Positions 248 to 10,110 of a stretch of DNA of 10,110 nucleotides are shown one piece after another. Numbering within the stretch: position 1 is the first letter of the stretch; each line of letters opens with the position of its first letter. Under the pieces are notes generated by a model, which did no database searches, was not told the origin of the DNA, and worked only from the letters and a program-made list of their open reading frames with translations. Both the position numbers and the translations under genes were made by a program. Source of the DNA: Desulfobacterales bacterium (GTDB lineage: Bacteria > Desulfobacterota > Desulfobacteria > Desulfobacterales > Desulfobacteraceae); NCBI GenBank assembly GCA_022361135.1, contig JAKSBM010000622.1:1-10110 (forward strand), written 5' to 3'.

Positions 248-796
248 TCAGATCTTCTGCTCCTGGGATCTAAAGCAGGGAATACAAAGATCCTTACCGG
301 CAAAGCGTCGGATACGGGATTCCATGACCTTTTCTCCGCAATCGGCGCAGACCATGCTGTTCAGGATGCGGGCACCCCGCACCGGTGCCTGGTCAATGGA
401 CTTGATTTCAAACAAGGGGGCCAGGTCGTGGGCCATGATGGCCTGGGTCCGGGCGGCCTTGGGGTTTTCCGCATTGGGATCGTCCGGAACGATGTGGTCC
501 AGGAAGAGGGCCCGAAATCCCCTGCCGGCCTTGCGGTCGAAAAAGGTAAACCCGGCTTTGCCGTAATCCCAATGGACCAGATTGCCCTTGCCATAGGTAC
601 AGGGGGTGAGAAATTGGATGGCATCCACCCCGCACATGTCCGTTTCCGTGACACAGACCACGTCGGAATCCGGTGTAAGGTTCAATTCCCTTCGGGCCAG
701 TTCGACGGCCCGGATGCCGATGGCCAGGCCGGGACAGGAATGGCCGTGGAAGGCGATGGTATCTTGAATTTCCTTGGTATCTATGGTGCAACGCAT
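248..796 (-). CDS. FmdE family protein with C-terminal zinc ribbon
   Basis: This 182-residue protein resembles subunit E of molybdenum formylmethanofuran dehydrogenase, a family common as stand-alone genes in anaerobic non-methanogens, where its job is not settled. The family signature FHGHSCPGLAIG lies at residues 16-27, with His17, His19 and Cys21 as likely metal ligands. A second family block, near TDMCGVDAIQ and TPCTYGKGNL, follows in the middle. The C-terminus has a four-cysteine zinc ribbon (Cys150, Cys153, Cys171, Cys174), as in many FmdE proteins. The start at 796 was chosen because AAGGAG lies about 8 bases upstream; an in-frame ATG at 847 has no such site and would add 17 unconserved residues. 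It is divergent from the DUF2889 gene and has its own leader hairpin. No other formylmethanofuran dehydrogenase subunits are in the window, so a redox or molybdopterin-linked role is inference. Confidence 0.85.
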   Translation of the reverse strand: MRCTIDTKEIQDTIAFHGHSCPGLAIGIRAVELARRELNLTPDSDVVCVTETDMCGVDAIQFLTPCTYGKGNLVHWDYGKAGFTFFDRKAGRGFRALFLDHIVPDDPNAENPKAARTQAIMAHDLAPLFEIKSIDQAPVRGARILNSMVCADCGEKVMESRIRRFAGKDLCIPCFRSQEQKI

Positions 797-832
797 TGGC
801 GTCTCCTTTGTAACGAATTTGAATGTGGAATC

Positions 833-870
833 GTTCCCCCGGGGCATGGGTGGATCGGCCCCGGGAAAAC
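833..870 (-). promoter_or_regulatory. Leader hairpin at the 5' end of the FmdE mRNA
   Basis: In the minus-strand RNA the arms at 858-870 and 833-845 form a continuous 13-bp stem with a 12-nt loop. The core is eight G-C pairs, followed by two G-U wobbles and three closing pairs. The wobbles become A-C mismatches in the plus-strand RNA, so the full stem exists only in the FmdE direction. It begins almost exactly where transcription should start from the candidate promoter at 878-907. It may stabilise the mRNA end or regulate expression; no known riboswitch was recognised. Confidence 0.4.
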
Positions 871-1749: not shown

Positions 1750-1773
1750 AAAAACCGGAGGCCCGACCTCAGG
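1750..1773 (-). terminator. Intrinsic terminator of the ATL gene
   Basis: On the minus strand CC-GAGG pairs with CCTC-GG (one mismatch, 5-nt loop), directly followed by TTTTT (1750-1754 on the plus strand). The stem includes the ATL stop codon. The stem is short, hence moderate confidence. Confidence 0.4.
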
Positions 1774-2110
1774 AAGTCATTTCCCGAATCTGATCCTCTT
1801 CACGCCCCTCCCATAGGTATTGGGAAAGGTCGATGCGGCCGGAAACCGAAACCACAATACCTTCGGATTCCAGCAATGCCTGTTGTTCTTCCAGGCCCTG
1901 GCCGGGCTTCAGGGAAATCCGGCCCTGGGCATTGATCACCCGGTGCCATGGCAATTGATACTTCCGGGACATGGAATGGAGGAGGCGGGAAACCTGACGG
2001 GCAGCCCTTGGGTTGCCGGCCAGGGCGGCAACCCGGCCATAGGTCAGAACCCGACCCTGGGGAATGGCTTGAATGACGGCCAGGGCCGCCTGTGTAAACG
2101 GGGTGTGCAT
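1769..2110 (-). CDS. Alkyltransferase-like (ATL) protein, MGMT family with Trp for Cys
   Basis: A 113-residue DNA-repair protein of the O6-alkylguanine alkyltransferase family. The acceptor motif PCHRV of true alkyltransferases reads PWHRVI here (Trp55), which is the defining change of ATL proteins. These bind O6-alkylguanine, flip the base and hand the lesion to nucleotide excision repair instead of removing the alkyl group. The helix-turn-helix region is present (VLTYGRVAAL at 21-30, RAARQVSRLL at 35-44), with Tyr24 and Arg38 in the places expected for base flipping and the arginine finger. The protein lacks the N-terminal domain of Ada/Ogt, as usual for ATL. The start at 2110 follows AGGA at 9 bases; an in-frame ATG at 2128 adds six residues and has a poorer site. 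The gene is monocistronic and divergent from the exporter. Confidence 0.88.
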   Translation of the reverse strand: MHTPFTQAALAVIQAIPQGRVLTYGRVAALAGNPRAARQVSRLLHSMSRKYQLPWHRVINAQGRISLKPGQGLEEQQALLESEGIVVSVSGRIDLSQYLWEGREEDQIREMTS

Positions 2111-2175
2111 GGGCCAGAATCCTGCCATGAAATGCCCGGGGTTTCAAGGAAACAAAATCCTGCCCCACTTTTCCA

Positions 2176-2205
2176 TTGAATTCCCGGCCCGGATTCCCCT
2201 ATAGT
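2176..2205 (+). promoter_or_regulatory. Candidate promoter for the exporter, overlapping an ATL promoter
   Basis: TTGAAT (2176-2181) and TATAGT (2200-2205) are spaced by 18 bp; the -10 matches 5 of 6. Read on the other strand, the same spot holds TATAGG with TTGGGA 16 bp upstream, a possible ATL promoter. The two -10 boxes overlap in a CCCTATAGTGGG stretch, so the two genes could compete for polymerase. Confidence 0.35.
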
Positions 2206-2238
2206 GGGCGCCATTTAAATCCCAAGGAAAGGCAGTCC

Positions 2239-3129
2239 ATGAAAACCCAACCCGCTTCCCCTTTGATTCCCCTGGCAGCCGTAATCGCGGCGGTATTCCT
2301 CTGGGGCGCATCCTTTTCCACCATGCGCATGGCCATGAACCAATTGGATCCCTCGGCCGTAATGTTCCTTCGCTTTGCATTTGCCCTGACCGCCCTGCTC
2401 CCCTTCCTTGGTCGACTCTGGCCCCGAAACTACCAGGCCGGAGACTGGAAACCCCTGGGCATCCTGGTCCTTTGCCAGCCCTGCCTTTATTTTCTATTTG
2501 AATCCCGGGCCCTGGTTTACACCACCTCCTCTCAAGTGGGGCTGATTTCCGCCTGCCTTCCCCTGATGGTGGCCCTGGCCGCACGGATCATACTCAAGGA
2601 AACCATGAAACCCTTGACCCTGGTGGGGCTGTTTTTATCCATTGCCGGAGTGGTGGGGTTGACCGCCTTCCAGGCCCAGGGAGAAACCGCCCCCCATCCC
2701 ATCCTGGGGAACATCATGGAAATCCTGGCCATGGCCTGCGCCTGCATCTACATGATCCAGATCAAACAGCTTTCCAACCGGTACAACGGCTGGACCCTGA
2801 CCGCGTTTCAGATCATCACCGGCACCCTGTTTTTCTCCCCGGGCATCCAGGGAATACTGGCGGCCCCGGCCGGGACCTGGACAATGGAACTCATTGCCAC
2901 CCTGGCCTTTCTGGGTGTATTTGTCTCCCTTTTGGCATTTGGTCTTTACAACTATGCCATGGGTCTGTTGCCGGCGGCCCGGGCGTCAATTTTTATCAAT
3001 TTGATCCCGGTCATTGCCGTATTCCTGGGCTGGCTCCTCCTGGATGAAACCTTGAACCAGATCCAAAGCATTGCCGCGGCCGTGGTGATATTCGGCGTCA
3101 TCCTGAGCAACCGGGCCCAGCCCGCCTGA
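2239..3129 (+). CDS. EamA (DMT superfamily) inner-membrane transporter
   Basis: A 296-residue protein of the drug/metabolite transporter superfamily with the usual two EamA repeats and about ten membrane helices. Repeat 1 spans about residues 10-142 and opens with AAVFLWGASF; the run PSAVMFLRFAFA is typical of helix 2. Repeat 2 spans about 155-290 and contains a GLYNYAMGLLPAARASIF stretch typical of helix 8-9. Length and layout are normal for the family, which exports amino acids, purines or other small metabolites; the substrate cannot be told. The ATG at 2239 is chosen over the upstream ATG-less extension (frame open from 2176) because AAGGAAAGG (2224-2232) precedes it and the extra residues lie within the promoter region. 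It is transcribed alone, with a perfect hairpin 20 bp after the stop. Confidence 0.88.
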   Translation: MKTQPASPLIPLAAVIAAVFLWGASFSTMRMAMNQLDPSAVMFLRFAFALTALLPFLGRLWPRNYQAGDWKPLGILVLCQPCLYFLFESRALVYTTSSQVGLISACLPLMVALAARIILKETMKPLTLVGLFLSIAGVVGLTAFQAQGETAPHPILGNIMEILAMACACIYMIQIKQLSNRYNGWTLTAFQIITGTLFFSPGIQGILAAPAGTWTMELIATLAFLGVFVSLLAFGLYNYAMGLLPAARASIFINLIPVIAVFLGWLLLDETLNQIQSIAAAVVIFGVILSNRAQPA

Positions 3130-3456: not shown

Positions 3457-3478
3457 ACCCATAATTGATTCTCTTCAA
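3447..3478 (-). promoter_or_regulatory. Candidate extended -10 promoter of the minus-strand transcript
   Basis: On the minus strand TGC-TATAGA (3447-3455) forms an extended -10 box. A TTGAAG lies at 3473-3478, but 20 bp away, longer than ideal, so the extended -10 would have to compensate. The overlap with the plus-strand boxes would make the two transcripts mutually exclusive. Confidence 0.25.
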
Positions 3479-3508
3479 TGGATGATGATCCATCCGAACT
3501 TCATCCAT
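3478..3508. repeat. Short inverted repeat in the operon leader
   Basis: ATGGATGA (3478-3485) and TCATCCAT (3501-3508) are exact inverse complements with a 15-nt gap. A competing shorter hairpin uses ATGGAT (3478-3483) and ATCCAT (3488-3493). Both lie just downstream of the candidate start site, where an operator or a leader hairpin could act. Confidence 0.35.
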
Positions 3509-3570
3509 CTTCTTTCTTTGCCCATGGGCCCGTTAGATCGTTTTTCACCGATATAATAGAGGAAAGCCCC

Positions 3571-6450
3571 ATGTCACAACATTGCAACGACAATACGATA
3601 ACACCCACCCATGTGGTGGGCATTGGTGCCTCCGCCGGCGGGCTGGTCGCCCTTGAAGAATTTTTTAAAACCATTCCCTCCAAAACCGGTCTATCCTTTG
3701 TGGTGATCCAGCATTTGCCTGCGGACCACAAAAGCATGATGCTGGAATTGTTATCACGGCACACCGATTTAAAGGTCTGCTACATCGAAAATGACATGGT
3801 CCTGGAGCCGGACAGCGTCTACCTGATCCCACCGGGGAATAATGTTAAATTATTTCACAACACCTTTATTCTGGAAGCCCCAAAGGAAAAACAATCCCAG
3901 ATCAACCTGCCCATTGATATCTTTTTTACATCCCTGGCAGATTCCCAGGAAGAAAAAGCCATTGCCATCATTCTTTCGGGTACGGGCAGCGACGGTTCCC
4001 GGGGAATCCGCCACATCAAGGAGAAATTCGGGATCAACATCGTCCAAAGCCTGGAAACGGCCCAGTTTGACGGCATGCCCAAAAGTGCCATGGAAACAGG
4101 AATCGTGGACTTTGTCCTCCCCCCGGACAAAATGATCCATCACATCCTGGCCTATATCCAGCACCCCTTTGCCAGGCAACCCACCTGCCAGCCCAGAATC
4201 ATGGCCGATGAAACCGGCTTGACCCGCATTTTTTCCCTGCTGCGGGAAAACCATCTGGTGGACTTCACCTTTTATAAGCAGGCCACGGTTCTCCGGCGCA
4301 TTGAGCGACGAATGACCATTAATCAAGTGCACGAATTATCTGACTATATTAAATATCTGGAGAGCTATCCCAAGGAAATCAACACCCTTTACAATGAATT
4401 GCTCATCGGGGTAACCGGCTTTTTCAGGGATCCCAGTGCCTTTGAATACATCCGCAAAGAAGTCATACCGCAAATTCTAACCCAGAAGGATAATAAGGAA
4501 ATCCGTTTTTGGATAGAAGGCTGTTCAACCGGAGAAGAAGCCTATAGTCTGGGGATTCTTTGCCAGGAGTGCATGAAGGAGGAAAAAATTTCGCCCGATG
4601 TTAAAATTTTTGCCACCGACGTGGATAAACGGGCAATCATCACAGCCTCGGACGGCATTTACCATGAAAGCATCACCGCAGATATCCCCCATAACCTGTT
4701 GACCAATTATTTCCATCGCAAGGAAGGCCATTTCCAAATTTCACGGCAAATCCGGGAAATGGTGGTTTTTGCCCAGCACAATATCCTCAAGGACCCGCCT
4801 TTTACAAACATTGATCTGGTCAGTTGCCGTAACATGTTGATCTATCTCCAGCCCATTCTCCAAAAGCGGGCCCTGGAAAAATTCAATTTTGCATTGAAAC
4901 AGGATGGATTTCTCTTCCTGGGCGCCAGTGAATCCATTGGGGAGATGAATCACTATTTTGAATCCCTGAACAATAAATGGAAAATATACCGTTCCCGGGG
5001 GAATCGCTCCCAGCACATGAGCGGGCTGGAACGTTATGCGCCGGATAGCCCGGGCCGGCAGGATCCCCGCTCAAAGCTTTTGAGTGGGACCAGACCCCTG
5101 ATGCAGGAACGGGTCATGGAACAGATGGTCACCCTCCTGGCGGAACGGTATATGGATTTAACCATTCTGGTAAACGATGCCAATGAAATTCTCCATGTTT
5201 TTGGACAAACCGAGGGCTTTTTAAAATTTCCTGCCGGGAAACCGGTGAACGATATCCAAAAGGCCCTGATAAAGGAATTGAAGGTACCGATCATTGCCGG
5301 CCTCCAAAAAATTTTCAAGGGCAACGAACCGGCCAAATACGCCCAAGCCCAACTCCAGGTCAACAACGCCGCCATGACCGCAAAAATCGAAATTCACCCC
5401 ATCAGAACCCATTCCGACGGCAGCACACTGGCTGTAATATTAATCCACAATGAAGAAAGCCAGACAAAAAAAGAAAACATCCCATTGGAAGAAATCGATA
5501 TCCATGTGGAAAGGCGCATTGAAAATCTGGAAACCGAACTTCAATTTACCCGTGAAAGCCTGCAGACCACCATCGAGGAATTGGAAACCTCCAATGAAGA
5601 ATTGGGTGCCACCAACGAGGAATTGATGGCCAGCAACGAAGAACTCCAGAGCACCAATGAAGAGCTCCAATCGGTGAACGAAGAACTCTACACCGTCAAT
5701 GCCGAATACCAGGGGAAAAACCTGGAATTGGTGGAGACGAAAAATGACCTGGAAAATCTGTTGAACAATCTGGAAATCCCCATCCTCTTCCTGGACGAAA
5801 AGCTAAGGATCCGCCAATTTACCCCCCAACTCAAAAAGCTGTTTAAAATCACGGACCAGGACATCGACCGCCCCATTGATCACACCATTCACCACTTTGT
5901 GAATTTTGATCCCACGGAAATAGTGAAACGGGTTCTTGAAACCGAAGAAAACGAAGAGAAGGAAGTGGCGACAAAGGAAGGATTATGTTACCTTATAAAA
6001 ATAAAACCCTATCGGATTTCAGCCAATTACACCGCCGGGGTCATCATCGTATTCATCGACATCACCACCCGTAAGAAAAATGAATTTGTTCAGCAACGCC
6101 TGGATACCGTTATTATGGACTCCAACGACGCAGTCACCGTCCTCGACCTGGAAGGCAATATCACAGCCTGGAACCATGGTGCTGAAAAGATATACGGTTA
6201 TACGGAAGCCGAAGCTCTGGAAATGAATATCCATCAACTTGTCTGCCCGGACACCACACCGGATCCACTCTCTTTCCTGGACCTGATGCGACAGGGGAAA
6301 GCCGTTGTTCCCTTTGAAACCACACGGAAAACCCGATGGGGAGATCGAATCTTCGTTTATCTAACAGCAACCCAATTGGTGGACGACAATGGTGTCATGG
6401 TGGCTGTTGCAACCACGGAAAGGAAAACCAAAGATCCTTCCGATGAATAG
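3571..6450 (+). CDS. CheB-CheR fusion with coiled coil and PAS domains
   Basis: A 959-residue cytoplasmic protein. Residues ~12-190 are a CheB methylesterase domain with the catalytic triad Ser21 (GIGASAGG), His48 (VIQHLP) and Asp141 (GTGSDG), but no receiver domain. Residues ~205-475 are a CheR methyltransferase: a basic helix at [16 protein letters not shown], the AdoMet loop [12 protein letters not shown] at 317-328 and SCRNMLIY at 418-425. A PAS-like domain follows (~520-630), then a coiled coil (~638-730) with five NEEL heptads, and two more PAS domains (~730-840 and ~843-955). The family often ends in a histidine kinase; this one does not. It likely removes and adds methyl groups on receptor-like glutamates. 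ATG 3571 is used because AGAGGAAA lies 6 bases upstream; the frame is open from 3478, but that start lies in the leader. First gene of a four-gene operon. Confidence 0.92.
5590..5694 (+). repeat. Five tandem NEEL heptads in the CheB-CheR coiled coil
   Basis: Five consecutive 21-bp units encode heptads of the form x-N-E-E-L-x-x ([35 protein letters not shown]; residues 674-708). The pattern is characteristic of the linker in CheB-CheR-PAS proteins and should form a parallel two-stranded coil that relays signals between domains. The DNA units have diverged at third positions, so this is an old, selected repeat, not a recent expansion. Confidence 0.8.
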
Positions 6451-6465
6451 ACAAGGATGTTAAAC

Positions 6466-8052
6466 ATGGGTACCCATCCATCCAAACCCCAGTTTCAGAA
6501 ATTAAAAAAAGCAGCTGAAGATATCATCCAGAAAAAGGGCAAAGACATTTATCTGGAAGAGCTTGAATCTGACATGGATTTAAAAAGCCTGCTCCATGAT
6601 CTCCAGGTCTACCAGGTGGAACTGGAAGTCCAAAACAATGAATTAAAACAGGCACAGCAGGAGTTGGAAATTGCAAAGGAACATTATTTCCAGCTCTTCA
6701 ATCAGATCCCGGTGGGATACATCTCCGTGGACAGCTCCGGAATTATCCTTAAATCCAATCAAGCTTTCCAGGAAATGATCCAGCAACCCTTTTCACGATT
6801 ATACCGGCGCCCCTTCCTCCACTTCATCGAACCCGCGGATCAAAACGCGTTCCTGGGCCATTTTCAGCAATTCATCCAAAACAAAGAAAGGCATCACCTG
6901 GATGTGCAACTCCGAGCGGTGGAGGGAAAGCAATTGGATGTCCAATTGGATGTCAAAATCCTTGAACGCCCACGGGAATACAACCAGGGGCAGGATATCA
7001 TTCTCATTTCAGTGGTGGATGTCACCGAAAAAAAACAAATACAAAGGGCCCTGCGGGAACATCGGAACCGCCTGGAAACCATCATTGAAGATATTCCGGC
7101 CATGGTCTGCCGCTTCAATGCCAAGGGTATCATTCTGTACAGCAACAATGATTTCGACCATATATACAAAACCGGGGCCTACCAAGGGGCTGACTATAAT
7201 TTCTTTGAGCTTATTCCCCAGGAACAAAGGGATTTCATCCAAATGGAATTCCTCAGCCTCACCCCGCCGTCTCCGACCAAGGTCATTGAATTTTCCACAC
7301 AAAAAGATGGGGAAGAACGCCACCATCGCTGGGCCATTCGAACCATATTCGACGATGAAAACAGCCCCGTTGCATACCAGCTGGCCGGACAGGACGTCAC
7401 CGAAGAATTACGAATTCTCAAGGAACGGGAGGAAAAGGAAAAACTCCAAAGCCTTGTGGAGCTCTCCGGAGCCGTCTGCCATGAACTGCGCCAGCCACTT
7501 CAGGTGGTTGTGGGGCGGGTTGAGCTGATATCCATGGATCTCAACCATGACAAACATCTATTAAAGGATATCGAAGAATTAAAGAAACAAATCCTTCGAA
7601 TCAATGCCGCCCTGAACCAATTGGACCATATCACCCGGTATAAAACCCGGTCCTATGTGGGCGATGTGAAAATCATCGATCTGAAAAAAGCCTGTGAACG
7701 GAGGAAATACCCGCGTTACTCTCCGAAAAAGCCCTTGAGCATAGAATTCACCAGCCCAGGCCTCCCCGCCGGGGAAGTCATTGACCTATCCAAGGGCGGA
7801 GTTTCCTTCCGCCCACCACGGGAAAACGATTATATGAATGGAGAGGAAGCCCTCCAATGCCGGATCATGGACCAGGCCAGGAACATCCTGGTGGACGATC
7901 TCTGGTGCACCCCATTGACCCGGAACCCAATGGATACGGATGTGACCCAATTACCGGCACAATCGCCCAGGCACAGGATGGCCTTCCAGGACCCGGGCAA
8001 AACCCAGCTCCTTGGGGTGGAAAAACTGCTGTACGAGATGTCCCCCCTCTAG
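6466..8052 (+). CDS. PAS-PAS-HisKA-PilZ signalling protein without ATPase domain
   Basis: A 528-residue cytoplasmic protein. An N-terminal helical region (LHDLQVYQVELEVQNNEL) leads into PAS 1 (~74-190, QIPVGYISVDSSG) and PAS 2 (~200-320, IPAMVCRFNAKG; ends DVTEE). A HisKA-like helical hairpin (~320-395) carries the H-box CHELRQPLQ with phospho-acceptor His339. There is no HATPase domain: none of its N, G1, F or G2 boxes occur. Instead the chain continues into a PilZ domain (~410-525) with the c-di-GMP motifs RKYPR (Arg413, Arg417) and DLSKGG (440-445). It cannot autophosphorylate; it probably receives phosphate from another kinase and also senses c-di-GMP (inference). The start at 6466 has AAGGA 8 bases upstream; the in-frame ATG at 6457 overlaps that site. 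It lies 15 bp after the CheB-CheR gene and 25 bp before the binding protein. Confidence 0.88.
   Translation: MGTHPSKPQFQKLKKAAEDIIQKKGKDIYLEELESDMDLKSLLHDLQVYQVELEVQNNELKQAQQELEIAKEHYFQLFNQIPVGYISVDSSGIILKSNQAFQEMIQQPFSRLYRRPFLHFIEPADQNAFLGHFQQFIQNKERHHLDVQLRAVEGKQLDVQLDVKILERPREYNQGQDIILISVVDVTEKKQIQRALREHRNRLETIIEDIPAMVCRFNAKGIILYSNNDFDHIYKTGAYQGADYNFFELIPQEQRDFIQMEFLSLTPPSPTKVIEFSTQKDGEERHHRWAIRTIFDDENSPVAYQLAGQDVTEELRILKEREEKEKLQSLVELSGAVCHELRQPLQVVVGRVELISMDLNHDKHLLKDIEELKKQILRINAALNQLDHITRYKTRSYVGDVKIIDLKKACERRKYPRYSPKKPLSIEFTSPGLPAGEVIDLSKGGVSFRPPRENDYMNGEEALQCRIMDQARNILVDDLWCTPLTRNPMDTDVTQLPAQSPRHRMAFQDPGKTQLLGVEKLLYEMSPL
6931..6954 (+). repeat. Perfect 12-bp tandem duplication inside PAS 1
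   Basis: CAATTGGATGTC occurs twice in a row (6931-6942, 6943-6954) and encodes QLDVQLDV. It keeps the frame. The two copies are identical at the DNA level, which suggests a recent slip event in a beta strand of the first PAS domain. Confidence 0.7.
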
Positions 8053-8077: not shown

Positions 8078-9100
8078 ATGTTGCCACCCCAGCGAGTTCA
8101 ATTCACCATGGCCATGATCATCCTGGCCGTATGCCTGCAAACTTCCCCCGGGATATCCGCCCAACGAATCCTTGTGCTTGAAACCATGACCGCCCCCATT
8201 GTCCAAGAATTCACCCGGTCATTCATTGCCCGATTCAATCAACTCCATGGAAGCCGGGCCCCCAAAATCATTAAATTCAATGCCCAGGGGGATGGATCCC
8301 AGGCCAGGGCATTTTTAGCCAGGGAAAGCACATCCCATCCTCCGGACCTGGTGGTTTCCGTTGCAACCCTGGCAGCCAAGGCATCCAAAGCCATGCTGGG
8401 CCACACCCAAATTCCACAGGTTTTCATGTGTGTGACGGATCCGGTGGGGGCGGGACTTATTCCCTCACTGGACCAGGCGGCCGACAATATGACGGGGAAA
8501 GCCCACTATATCCCCGCGGAAACCAAAATAAATATGATCCTGAAAATCCTGGGACCACAACTGGGAGAGCGGCCGATTCGTTTTGGATATATTTACACGG
8601 ATTATCCCGCCGACCTCAGCGATTACGAACGCCTCCAAGACGCCGCCAGGACCATCAAAAACATCGTTTTCGTTCCCCGCAAAATAGCCTACCAACCCAT
8701 TGCCCAAAATAAAAAACAACTATTGGAACACGTCCGTGATGCCGCCCGGGAACTCCAGGGGAAAATCGATTATTTCTGGTCCCCCCGGGGCGTGTTGGCG
8801 GTGCTCCCGGACCATGATAAACTGCTGCTGGATTTTCCCCAAAGTCCCCTATTGGTCGGTGCAACGGAAAACAGTGTTAAAATGGGGGCATTGGTCCACA
8901 TCACCGGGGATCCCAAATCCCAGGCCCGGGATGTGGCCACCCTCTGCCATGCCATTTTAAATGGCAAATCCCCCGGGGATATCGCGCCCTCACTTCCCCG
9001 GGACATCCAGTTCTCCGTGAATCTGAAAACAGCCATTCGCTTGAACATGCCCATTCCGTCGGACATACTGGAACTGGCCAAGGGACACATCCATAATTGA
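8078..9100 (+). CDS. TrpX/DUF534-type periplasmic substrate-binding protein
   Basis: A 340-residue exported protein of the ABC substrate-binding family related to TrpX (DUF534, ABC_sub_bind). The signal peptide covers residues 1-28 (hydrophobic core MAMIILAVCL, cleavage after GISA). The mature part begins RILVLETM and shows family blocks PDLVVSVATLAAKA, IPQVFMCVTDPVGAGLI, NMTGKAHYIP and the C-terminal GDIAPSLPRDIQFSVNLKTA. Such proteins bind small ligands such as aromatic amino acids between two lobes. No permease or ATPase gene is seen beside it; instead it is followed 2 bp later by a membrane sensor. It may therefore act as a ligand-presenting co-sensor, not as a transport component (inference from context). 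ATG 8078 has AGGA about 7 bases upstream. Cys19 is preceded by Val, a poor lipobox, so a soluble periplasmic form is more likely. Confidence 0.87.
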   Translation: MLPPQRVQFTMAMIILAVCLQTSPGISAQRILVLETMTAPIVQEFTRSFIARFNQLHGSRAPKIIKFNAQGDGSQARAFLARESTSHPPDLVVSVATLAAKASKAMLGHTQIPQVFMCVTDPVGAGLIPSLDQAADNMTGKAHYIPAETKINMILKILGPQLGERPIRFGYIYTDYPADLSDYERLQDAARTIKNIVFVPRKIAYQPIAQNKKQLLEHVRDAARELQGKIDYFWSPRGVLAVLPDHDKLLLDFPQSPLLVGATENSVKMGALVHITGDPKSQARDVATLCHAILNGKSPGDIAPSLPRDIQFSVNLKTAIRLNMPIPSDILELAKGHIHN

Positions 9101-9102
9101 CC

Positions 9103-10110
9103 ATGGGATTCCAAACCAAAATCACCCTTTTCATTCTCCCCATCATCTTTGCCGCCGTGGCCGGGGTGGGGGTATGGAATTTCATGGCCGCCCGGGACAC
9201 GGTTTACCAATACACCTATGAACAAATCGACCTGATCCTGGAAGAGACCCTCTCCCATGAATTGATCCGCAGGGAAAAAATCCTCAGGCAGACGGAAATG
9301 GACCAGGTGGATTTCTTTGTCCGGGAATACCAGAATGAAGCCCTGGCCGCCCTGGGAAAGGAAATGGAAAATAAGGAGGGGGCATACGCAGTCCTGAACA
9401 GCCAGAAGGAATTCATTTTACTCCCCAAAGAAATGACCGCCCAAACCCTTTCCCCCCTCCTGGAAAAACTATTCAATGGAGCCCCGGAATTCCCCCAGCA
9501 GGGGCGATTCATGGACAAGGCCAGCCACCAGCAATTTTACGTTGCAGCGGCATTTCCCCCCTGGGGATGGACACTGGTATATTTCATTGAAGCCGCTCCC
9601 ATCCATGGGGCCATATCCGACATTTTCCGTCGAACCTGTATCATCATCTCTGTCTTCTTATTTTTAGGCATCCTGGGGCTTCTTGGAATCCTACGAAAGG
9701 TTCTTACCCAGCGGGTGGTCTTGCTGAAAACCGCTGCCGCCCGCATCGCAAGGGAACAATCCATCCAAACCATAGACATCAAATCCCACGACGAGTTGGG
9801 GGATCTGGCCCGATCCATGGAACTCATGTCCGAAACCCTCTACCACCACAACGTCAAACAGGAAAAAATGAAAACAGAACTCATGACCCTTAACCGGGAA
9901 TTGTTCACCAGTAACCAGAACCTGGAAGAAATGAGCAAAAACATGGAGATGCAGGTGGCCCAGCGAACCCAGACCCTGGAGGACATCAACCAGGAGTTGA
10001 CCGCCAATATCGCCTCCATCGAAGCCGAACTCAACCAGGCCAACCAGAAACGCACCCGCCTCACGGAAAAACTCTCCGGCTTGCTCCTGAAGCAGGCAGA
10101 CATGGTCCAG
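9103..10110 (+). CDS. Membrane sensor with periplasmic domain, HAMP and coiled coil (3' end outside window)
   Basis: The frame is open from ATG 9103 to the window edge (336 codons). Residues ~8-26 form TM helix 1, ~27-177 a periplasmic region ending with FPPWGWTLVYFIE, a Cache-like closing strand, and ~178-198 TM helix 2. A HAMP domain follows (~200-251, with the DELGDLA signature at 230-236). A long coiled coil (~252-334) leads out of the window. This is the N-terminal half of a sensor histidine kinase, diguanylate cyclase or chemoreceptor; HAMP plus a long coil ending in SGLLLKQADMVQ does not settle which. The start lies 2 bp after the stop of the binding-protein gene and lacks a close ribosome-binding site (AGGGA is about 17 bases away), so translation is probably coupled. 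The pairing with a periplasmic binding protein suggests that it senses the loaded form. Confidence 0.85.
   Translation, partial: MGFQTKITLFILPIIFAAVAGVGVWNFMAARDTVYQYTYEQIDLILEETLSHELIRREKILRQTEMDQVDFFVREYQNEALAALGKEMENKEGAYAVLNSQKEFILLPKEMTAQTLSPLLEKLFNGAPEFPQQGRFMDKASHQQFYVAAAFPPWGWTLVYFIEAAPIHGAISDIFRRTCIIISVFLFLGILGLLGILRKVLTQRVVLLKTAAARIAREQSIQTIDIKSHDELGDLARSMELMSETLYHHNVKQEKMKTELMTLNRELFTSNQNLEEMSKNMEMQVAQRTQTLEDINQELTANIASIEAELNQANQKRTRLTEKLSGLLLKQADMVQ

Follow-up and report, generated by a model that had tools for sequence, protein, structure and literature searches.

A HisKA-PilZ fusion protein without an ATPase domain, paired with a CheB-CheR gene in a Desulfobacterales bacterium, and the ATPase-less DHp clade around it

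The stretch of DNA considered here (the window) comprises 10,110 nt of contig JAKSBM010000622.1, from a Desulfobacterales bacterium. A gene at 6466..8052 (+) encodes a 528-aa protein in which a Pfam scan finds PAS-PAS-HisKA-PilZ, in that order, without HATPase: a DHp (HisKA) module, the dimerizing phospho-acceptor part of histidine kinases, is joined to a PilZ domain with motifs for cyclic di-GMP (c-di-GMP). It begins 15 bp after a CheB-CheR-PAS-PAS fusion gene (3478..6450, + strand, 990 aa from its first ATG), and the next open reading frame (ORF) follows 25 bp after its end. The first in-frame ATG is at 6457 (ORF 6457-8052, 531 residues), but the ATG at 6466 is the likelier start, because it is preceded at 8 nt by AAGGA (6453..6457, + strand), on a reading of the sequence a likely ribosome-binding site, and because the public protein P0001 begins there. 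Residue numbers below (315-531, 322-411, 414-531, and so on) are counted from ATG 6457.

The first PAS domain (6679..7035, + strand, residues 75-193) is assigned by Pfam PAS and PAS_4 and by a structural model; the second (7066..7398, + strand, approximately residues 204-314) is a further PAS-family stretch, delimited by alignment with the relatives P0002-P0006 and by the model. NCBIfam also finds two PAS boxes, its other matches being far under their cut-offs. The DHp module with its tail occupies 7420..7689 (+ strand, residues 322-411), HisKA matching residues 335-392 at 27.7 bits (Pfam cut-off 26.9). Its H-box, CHELRQPLQ, holds the phospho-acceptor histidine of HELRQP (codon CAT, 7480..7482, + strand), which is His342 from ATG 6457 and His339 from ATG 6466. 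The tail, ITRYKTRSYVGDVKIIDL (7630..7683, + strand), is the usual end point of relatives; here it is followed by PilZ (7696..8049, + strand, residues 414-531), matched over residues 414-473 at 24.0 bits (cut-off 22.5), with the c-di-GMP motifs RxxxR (RKYPR, R416-KYP-R420; 7702..7716, + strand) and D/NxSxxG (DLSKGG, residues 443-448; 7783..7800, + strand). No membrane part was seen in the domain scan. HATPase is missing from the eight Pfam families reported for this protein at a limit of E=10, although HMMER's filters remove most matches above about 0.1 despite that limit.

Since a model of the full-length protein gave PAS-dominated PDB matches, the C-terminal part (residues 315-531) was modeled alone. 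It folds as a DHp helical hairpin followed by a six-stranded PilZ barrel, with a short, low-confidence linker between them; c-di-GMP-bound PilZ domains are its top structural matches, and the DHp part matches the fold of CpxA. As modeled, both the HisKA and the PilZ folds are supported. PilZ occupies the stretch beyond the DHp, and no ATPase-like domain of the Spo0B or ChpT type was found by Pfam or among the listed structural matches, which does not by itself exclude that family. The first-pass annotation of this DNA, made from the letters alone, had described this architecture, an intact His339, both c-di-GMP motifs and a next gene 25 bp away, and in all of this it was correct.

Ten distinct proteins, the window's included, carry the HisKA-PilZ join. 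Residues 320-531, used as a query against 5.8 billion proteins, retrieved the window's own P0001 and P0002-P0007; a profile search contributed P0128, and scanning GTDB species genomes yielded two more, L001 from a Desulfobacula metagenome-assembled genome (MAG) and L002 from a Desulfobacteraceae MAG. The N-terminal part is PAS-PAS in the window protein, P0002-P0006 and L001, PAS in P0128, REC-PAS in P0007 and GAF-PAS in L002. In a Pfam scan of eight relatives (all but P0128), HisKA is above its cut-off in all eight, PilZ in four (P0002, P0007, L001, and L002) and HATPase in none. Across nine aligned proteins the histidine, the glutamate following it, the H-box glutamine and proline, both arginines of RxxxR and the residues D.S.GG are invariant.

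The join is rare, occurring in 2 of 389 genomes sampled from the order and in 1 of 26 from the genus of L001. Outside the genomes of L001 and L002 it was not found in the 389 order genomes; outside that of L001, in none of 395 phylum, 86 family and 26 genus genomes; and outside that of L002, in none of 12 genomes of its family. (These draws overlap; cut-offs ranged from E 1e-30 to 1e-40, and up to 7 candidates per genome were scored for the order and phylum sets, 35 for the family set.)

A lost ATPase, a frameshift or a misassembly would make the architecture an artifact; the first-pass annotation had already judged a lost or frameshifted HATPase unlikely. Pfam finds no HATPase, the PilZ fold follows in its place and the relatives are alike; an assembly error confined to one genome does not fit, because the join recurs in ten distinct proteins, including ones in two named genome bins, on a 5.3-Mb contig and on other public contigs. 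The clade adjoining these proteins in the tree described below, GAF-PAS-DHp in the rows scanned, also has no ATPase. No point was found in favor of this explanation, which is rejected as having next to no probability; the fusion is genuine, and it is both rare and conserved.

The missing ATPase is not special to the window protein, being the rule across a large clade of DHp-only proteins. The hallmark of this clade is an H-box plus a tail of the form RYxT..Y.G..KIID, at which the chain usually ends. A genome scan kept 80 loci out of 173 relatives; 78 of these end 69-104 residues past the histidine (one, L048, runs up to a contig end), and only L001 and L002 continue, into PilZ. The histidine is invariant across all 80 loci, as are the Glu at H+1, the Gln at H+4 and the Pro at H+5, a conservation favored by the H-box having been part of the scan patterns; the histidine is also kept in six loci caught with the tail pattern but not with that for the H-box. 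Pfam families in the 77 DHp-only proteins (the 80 loci less L001, L002, and L048) include HisKA in all 77, REC in 35, PAS in 35 and GAF in 16; of the 34 families found, the 25 commonest do not include HATPase.

A profile search, less biased than the pattern scan (up to 13 candidates scored per genome), gave a match at E<=1e-22 in 66 of 395 phylum genomes. The window protein scores 113.8 bits against the DHp profile, of which it is one of 41 rows, and its orthologue in L001 (L159), which lies outside the profile, scores 97.4 bits. The matches examined were 42 of 92 places in the phylum list, mostly top-scoring, and 24 of 27 listed for five genomes (the two sets overlap), leaving out the places of L001, L002, and L015. 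With identical segments taken once, 54 rows score at least 69 and 10 score at most 46, with none between; some of the 54 genes recur among the 80 loci. All 54 have the histidine, H+1 being Glu in 51, His in two and Asp in one, and all 54 have the tail motif, scored with a loose pattern that one of the 10 ordinary rows fits as well. The chain ends within 30 residues of the module in 51 of the 54. Of the exceptions, L235 (1051-2865, - strand) continues from a KIID-tail DHp into a complete kinase (a second HisKA plus HATPase_c), while L210:1618-3267 (Desulfosarcina widdelii) and L211:1437-3206 (D. alkanivorans) are REC-DHp-REC-GGDEF proteins, in which an ATPase-less DHp between two receivers forms an apparent Asp-His-Asp relay making c-di-GMP. 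The clade is larger than its PilZ branch, belongs to sulfate-reducing bacteria and their relatives, and is seemingly undescribed.

In a tree built on 91 columns of 146 DHp rows, whose bootstrap had not settled, the KIID module, with the window protein, is split from the 10 ordinary DHp rows with support of 97/94, the rows having been drawn by a profile built from the module and ordinary kinases being represented by those 10 only. Eight PilZ proteins (the window's, P0002-P0006, P0128, and L001) form one clade at 100/100, adjoined by 17 DHp-only rows from Desulfamplus, Desulfobacterium and kin (83/80). A PAS-PAS-DHp architecture considered for this adjoining clade was rejected: the seven of its 17 rows that were scanned are all GAF-PAS-HisKA without HATPase. 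L002 and P0007 are placed outside this clade, in a region where the branching is not resolved. The ten fusions amount to three changes on the tree, of which the starred branches force only one, so that a single origin of the fusion may be compatible with it; on the simplest reading of these sequences, PilZ would have been added after the tail of a DHp that already lacked an ATPase.

The upstream CheB-CheR-PAS-PAS protein is well matched by Pfam (CheB_methylest 184 bits, CheR 180.9 bits, and also CheR_N, PAS_10, and PAS_9). L001 has a CheB-CheR gene, 63% identical, in the same position, 11 bp separating its stop from the second in-frame ATG of the DHp-PilZ gene, which has the better Shine-Dalgarno sequence; the first ATG would overlap. 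CheR-type matches of at least 100 bits occur in just two other loci, L021 and L061 (25-30% identity), and CheR is found in 2 of 39 downstream neighbors of DHp-only genes. Among the best 120 of 1947 relatives of the CheB-CheR protein, P0008-P0015 are 62-73% identical and the others at most 52%. One of these, P0010, most likely shares a chromosome with the DHp-PilZ protein P0003, since both are on a contig of 5,306,180 bases.

What usually follows CheB-CheR genes was surveyed in the order, where 90 places were found in 65 of 242 genomes (up to three candidates scored per genome). Forty-two were fetched; seven had no reachable same-strand next gene, one was that of L001, and 34 were counted, by simple longest-ORF gene calling with gaps of up to 600 bp. 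Among these 34 next genes, HATPase_c occurs in 19, PAS_9 in 18, HisKA in 16, REC in 13 and PilZ in none. With HATPase_c in 19 of 34, the statement that most CheB-CheR genes precede a complete kinase would be too strong; a sensor kinase is nonetheless a common neighbor, and the DHp-PilZ gene holds that place in the window and in L001. In the loci L160-L197, a PAS histidine kinase gene is often next, overlapping or at a short gap.

The first-pass annotation had looked to the downstream sensor as a phosphotransfer partner; the synteny with L001 supports the upstream CheB-CheR protein better. This pairing also brings up a mode of action in which PilZ, once it has bound c-di-GMP, would attach to the partner's CheR domain and alter methylation, the DHp serving only to dimerize. 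The precedent is MapZ, an adaptor of Pseudomonas aeruginosa CheR1; with c-di-GMP it inhibits CheR1, according to an excerpt of PMC6370697. The likeness lies in the PilZ fold and motifs and in the genetic link to a CheR-domain protein, known here from the genes. However, MapZ-type adaptors are stand-alone PilZ proteins, whereas the window protein has four domains, with PilZ at the end, and its partner is a CheB-CheR fusion. We regard this account as rather improbable.

As our preferred reading, the window protein would be a phosphotransfer node that works without ATP, is gated by c-di-GMP and by signals at its PAS domains, and serves its CheB-CheR partner; we offer it tentatively, somewhat short of an even chance. 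The histidine of the DHp dimer would exchange a phosphoryl group with receiver domains, making the dimer a phosphotransfer station, or would alternatively receive phosphate from a kinase in trans, while a PAS signal and c-di-GMP at PilZ would set the competence of the DHp. The output would most likely be control of the CheB-CheR methyltransferase/methylesterase, because of the gene pairing, with PilZ possibly touching CheR directly; PilZ may set the state of the DHp or act on the partner's CheR domain, and we do not rank the two. Phosphotransfer is favored because the histidine and glutamate are retained, REC occurs in cis in many relatives and REC-DHp-REC-GGDEF relatives exist. A two-input node phosphorylated in trans, as first proposed, remains a natural reading, because the architecture is real, no hidden ATPase was found and the phosphorylation and c-di-GMP motifs are conserved; what has changed is that the absence of the ATPase is clade-wide and that phosphatase or MapZ-like action are serious alternatives.

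In the phosphatase alternative, the DHp dimer would dephosphorylate a response regulator without ATP, switched by PAS and c-di-GMP, with no need for a kinase in trans. According to excerpts of PMC3510030, the DHp of EnvZ or NtrB alone suffices for phosphatase activity, and in the motif H-E/D-x-x-T/N the Glu/Asp is kinase-only and the Thr/Asn serves the phosphatase. The H+4 position is Gln at all 80 loci and, in the 54 profile-selected rows, Gln in 50, Thr in two and Ser in two; in RapH and NarX, too, a Gln is implicated in this function (excerpts of PMC3510030 and PMC5727384, respectively), and by this analogy the amide at H+4 may keep the phosphatase reading viable. Against it, Gln at H+4 is also found in ordinary kinases (2 of 6 rows, the motif having been located in 6 of 10), H+1 retains its kinase-only Glu, and the ATPase domain greatly raises phosphatase activity, again by an excerpt of PMC3510030. 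On balance we think it unlikely.

The genes around the DHp-only loci bear on a further possibility. Upstream same-strand neighbors have REC in 9 of 35 cases, HATPase_c in eight, HisKA in seven, Hpt in six, STAS in five, and CheC and CheX in two each; downstream, REC is found in 9 of 39 (simple longest-ORF calling again, with six of the 80 loci lost and the upstream gene of L001 left out). As counts without a background control, these fit phosphosignaling in general. A DHp without an ATPase, with HisKA- and HATPase_c-bearing genes upstream of some members and, in L235, the module fused ahead of a complete kinase, might also be a pseudokinase that modulates a full kinase by heterodimerizing with it, in the manner in which RetS acts on GacS; the co-complex entry 7n0e is among the structural matches of the DHp-PilZ model. 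However, the tail and the separate clade set the module apart from ordinary DHp domains, which disfavors mixed four-helix bundles with them, and full conservation of the histidine would be unnecessary for such a role. We consider this quite improbable.

Against the domain assignment, the HisKA and PilZ scores barely exceed their Pfam cut-offs, and PilZ is below its cut-off in P0003-P0006 (15.5-17.5 bits); the structural model supports both folds. Several points weigh against the phosphotransfer node itself. The DHp-PilZ protein has no known cognate kinase or receiver, and 42 of the 77 DHp-only proteins have no REC found in cis; a second Hpt would be redundant where Hpt genes adjoin DHp-only genes. 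Adjacency to CheB-CheR is seen at two loci only (the window and L001), the pairing of P0003 with P0010 being by same-size contig rather than adjacency, and L002 (which starts 140 bp from a contig end) and P0007 are without a shown CheB-CheR partner. The neighbor counts are uncontrolled, as noted, and c-di-GMP binding, phosphorylation and dimerization of the window protein are predictions from sequence.

Compared with known systems, the module resembles the DHp of EnvZ and CpxA in its helical hairpin with an H-box, its above-cut-off HisKA match and its CpxA-like fold, but differs in having no HATPase_c, a conserved KIID tail and PilZ in place of the ATPase. Spo0B and ChpT are dimeric phosphotransferases that use a histidine on a DHp-type hairpin without kinase activity of their own and keep a degenerate ATPase-like domain; the window protein shares the hairpin, but no such domain was found in it. 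In DivL-like pseudokinases the phospho-acceptor histidine is replaced, whereas here it is retained. CckA and RavS are complete kinases without PilZ. They have an input of c-di-GMP into a phospho-His protein, as is predicted for the window protein (excerpts of PMC7288161 and PMC6707612, respectively). DHp-only proteins of Thermodesulfobacteriota such as L025 and L067 have the same DHp and tail and no ATPase, but end after the tail, where the window protein adds PilZ. A review (excerpt of PMC7288161) counts 221 Pfam PilZ architectures, with partners including GAF, Cache, PAS, GGDEF, EAL, and Peptidase_S8. Among the matches listed in a search of titles and abstract beginnings in the open-access literature, nothing was recognized that describes a HisKA-PilZ protein, the DHp-only clade or the CheB-CheR/DHp-PilZ pair. 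The parts are of known kinds; their join and the underlying clade look undescribed within the literature searched.

More broadly, and with less confidence than for the window protein, KIID-tail DHp proteins could be a dedicated ATP-free phosphosignaling family across Thermodesulfobacteriota, a plug-in unit linking receivers, sensors and outputs, with the PilZ branch as a two-gene junction of c-di-GMP, phospho-His and CheB-CheR methylation. If the module works without an ATPase, these bacteria have a layer of histidine phosphosignaling that would escape kinase surveys, because its proteins resemble broken kinases; the PilZ version would link c-di-GMP with phosphotransfer and also, by way of CheB-CheR, with protein methylation. 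Phosphotransfer, c-di-GMP binding and methylation each have a standard assay, so the idea is directly testable.

Downstream of the DHp-PilZ gene lie a gene for a periplasmic-type binding protein (ABC_sub_bind, 8078..9100, + strand; PF04392, 81.4 bits) and one for a HAMP sensor protein (9097..10110, + strand; HAMP 27.8 bits) that is truncated at the window's edge. L001 differs here, with a LysR regulator gene on the opposite strand in the next position. Membership of these downstream genes in a conserved unit is not supported by synteny, because at E<=1e-8 the 80 loci contain no ABC_sub_bind relative and a single weak match to the HAMP protein (L053, 22% identity). Of the HAMP protein relatives scanned, L095 is a complete hybrid kinase and L098:1-2283 (- strand) is HAMP-PAS-PAS-HisKA-REC without HATPase; since the latter lacks it, the window's HAMP sensor may also be without an ATPase. 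In the first part of the window, we take 248-847 (- strand) by eye to be an FmdE-like protein, 1769-2128 (- strand) presumably an alkyltransferase-like (ATL) protein, and 2176-3129 (+ strand) presumably an EamA/DMT transporter.

For six DHp-only genes of the clade adjoining the PilZ proteins (L005, L007, L008, L010, L030, and L031), the next gene on the same strand seems to encode the alpha chain of a serine dehydratase (SDH_alpha is found in 6 of the 39 downstream neighbors of DHp-only genes, the six loci being assigned by identity), and a DMT transporter relative lies further downstream in L005, L010, L030, and L031.
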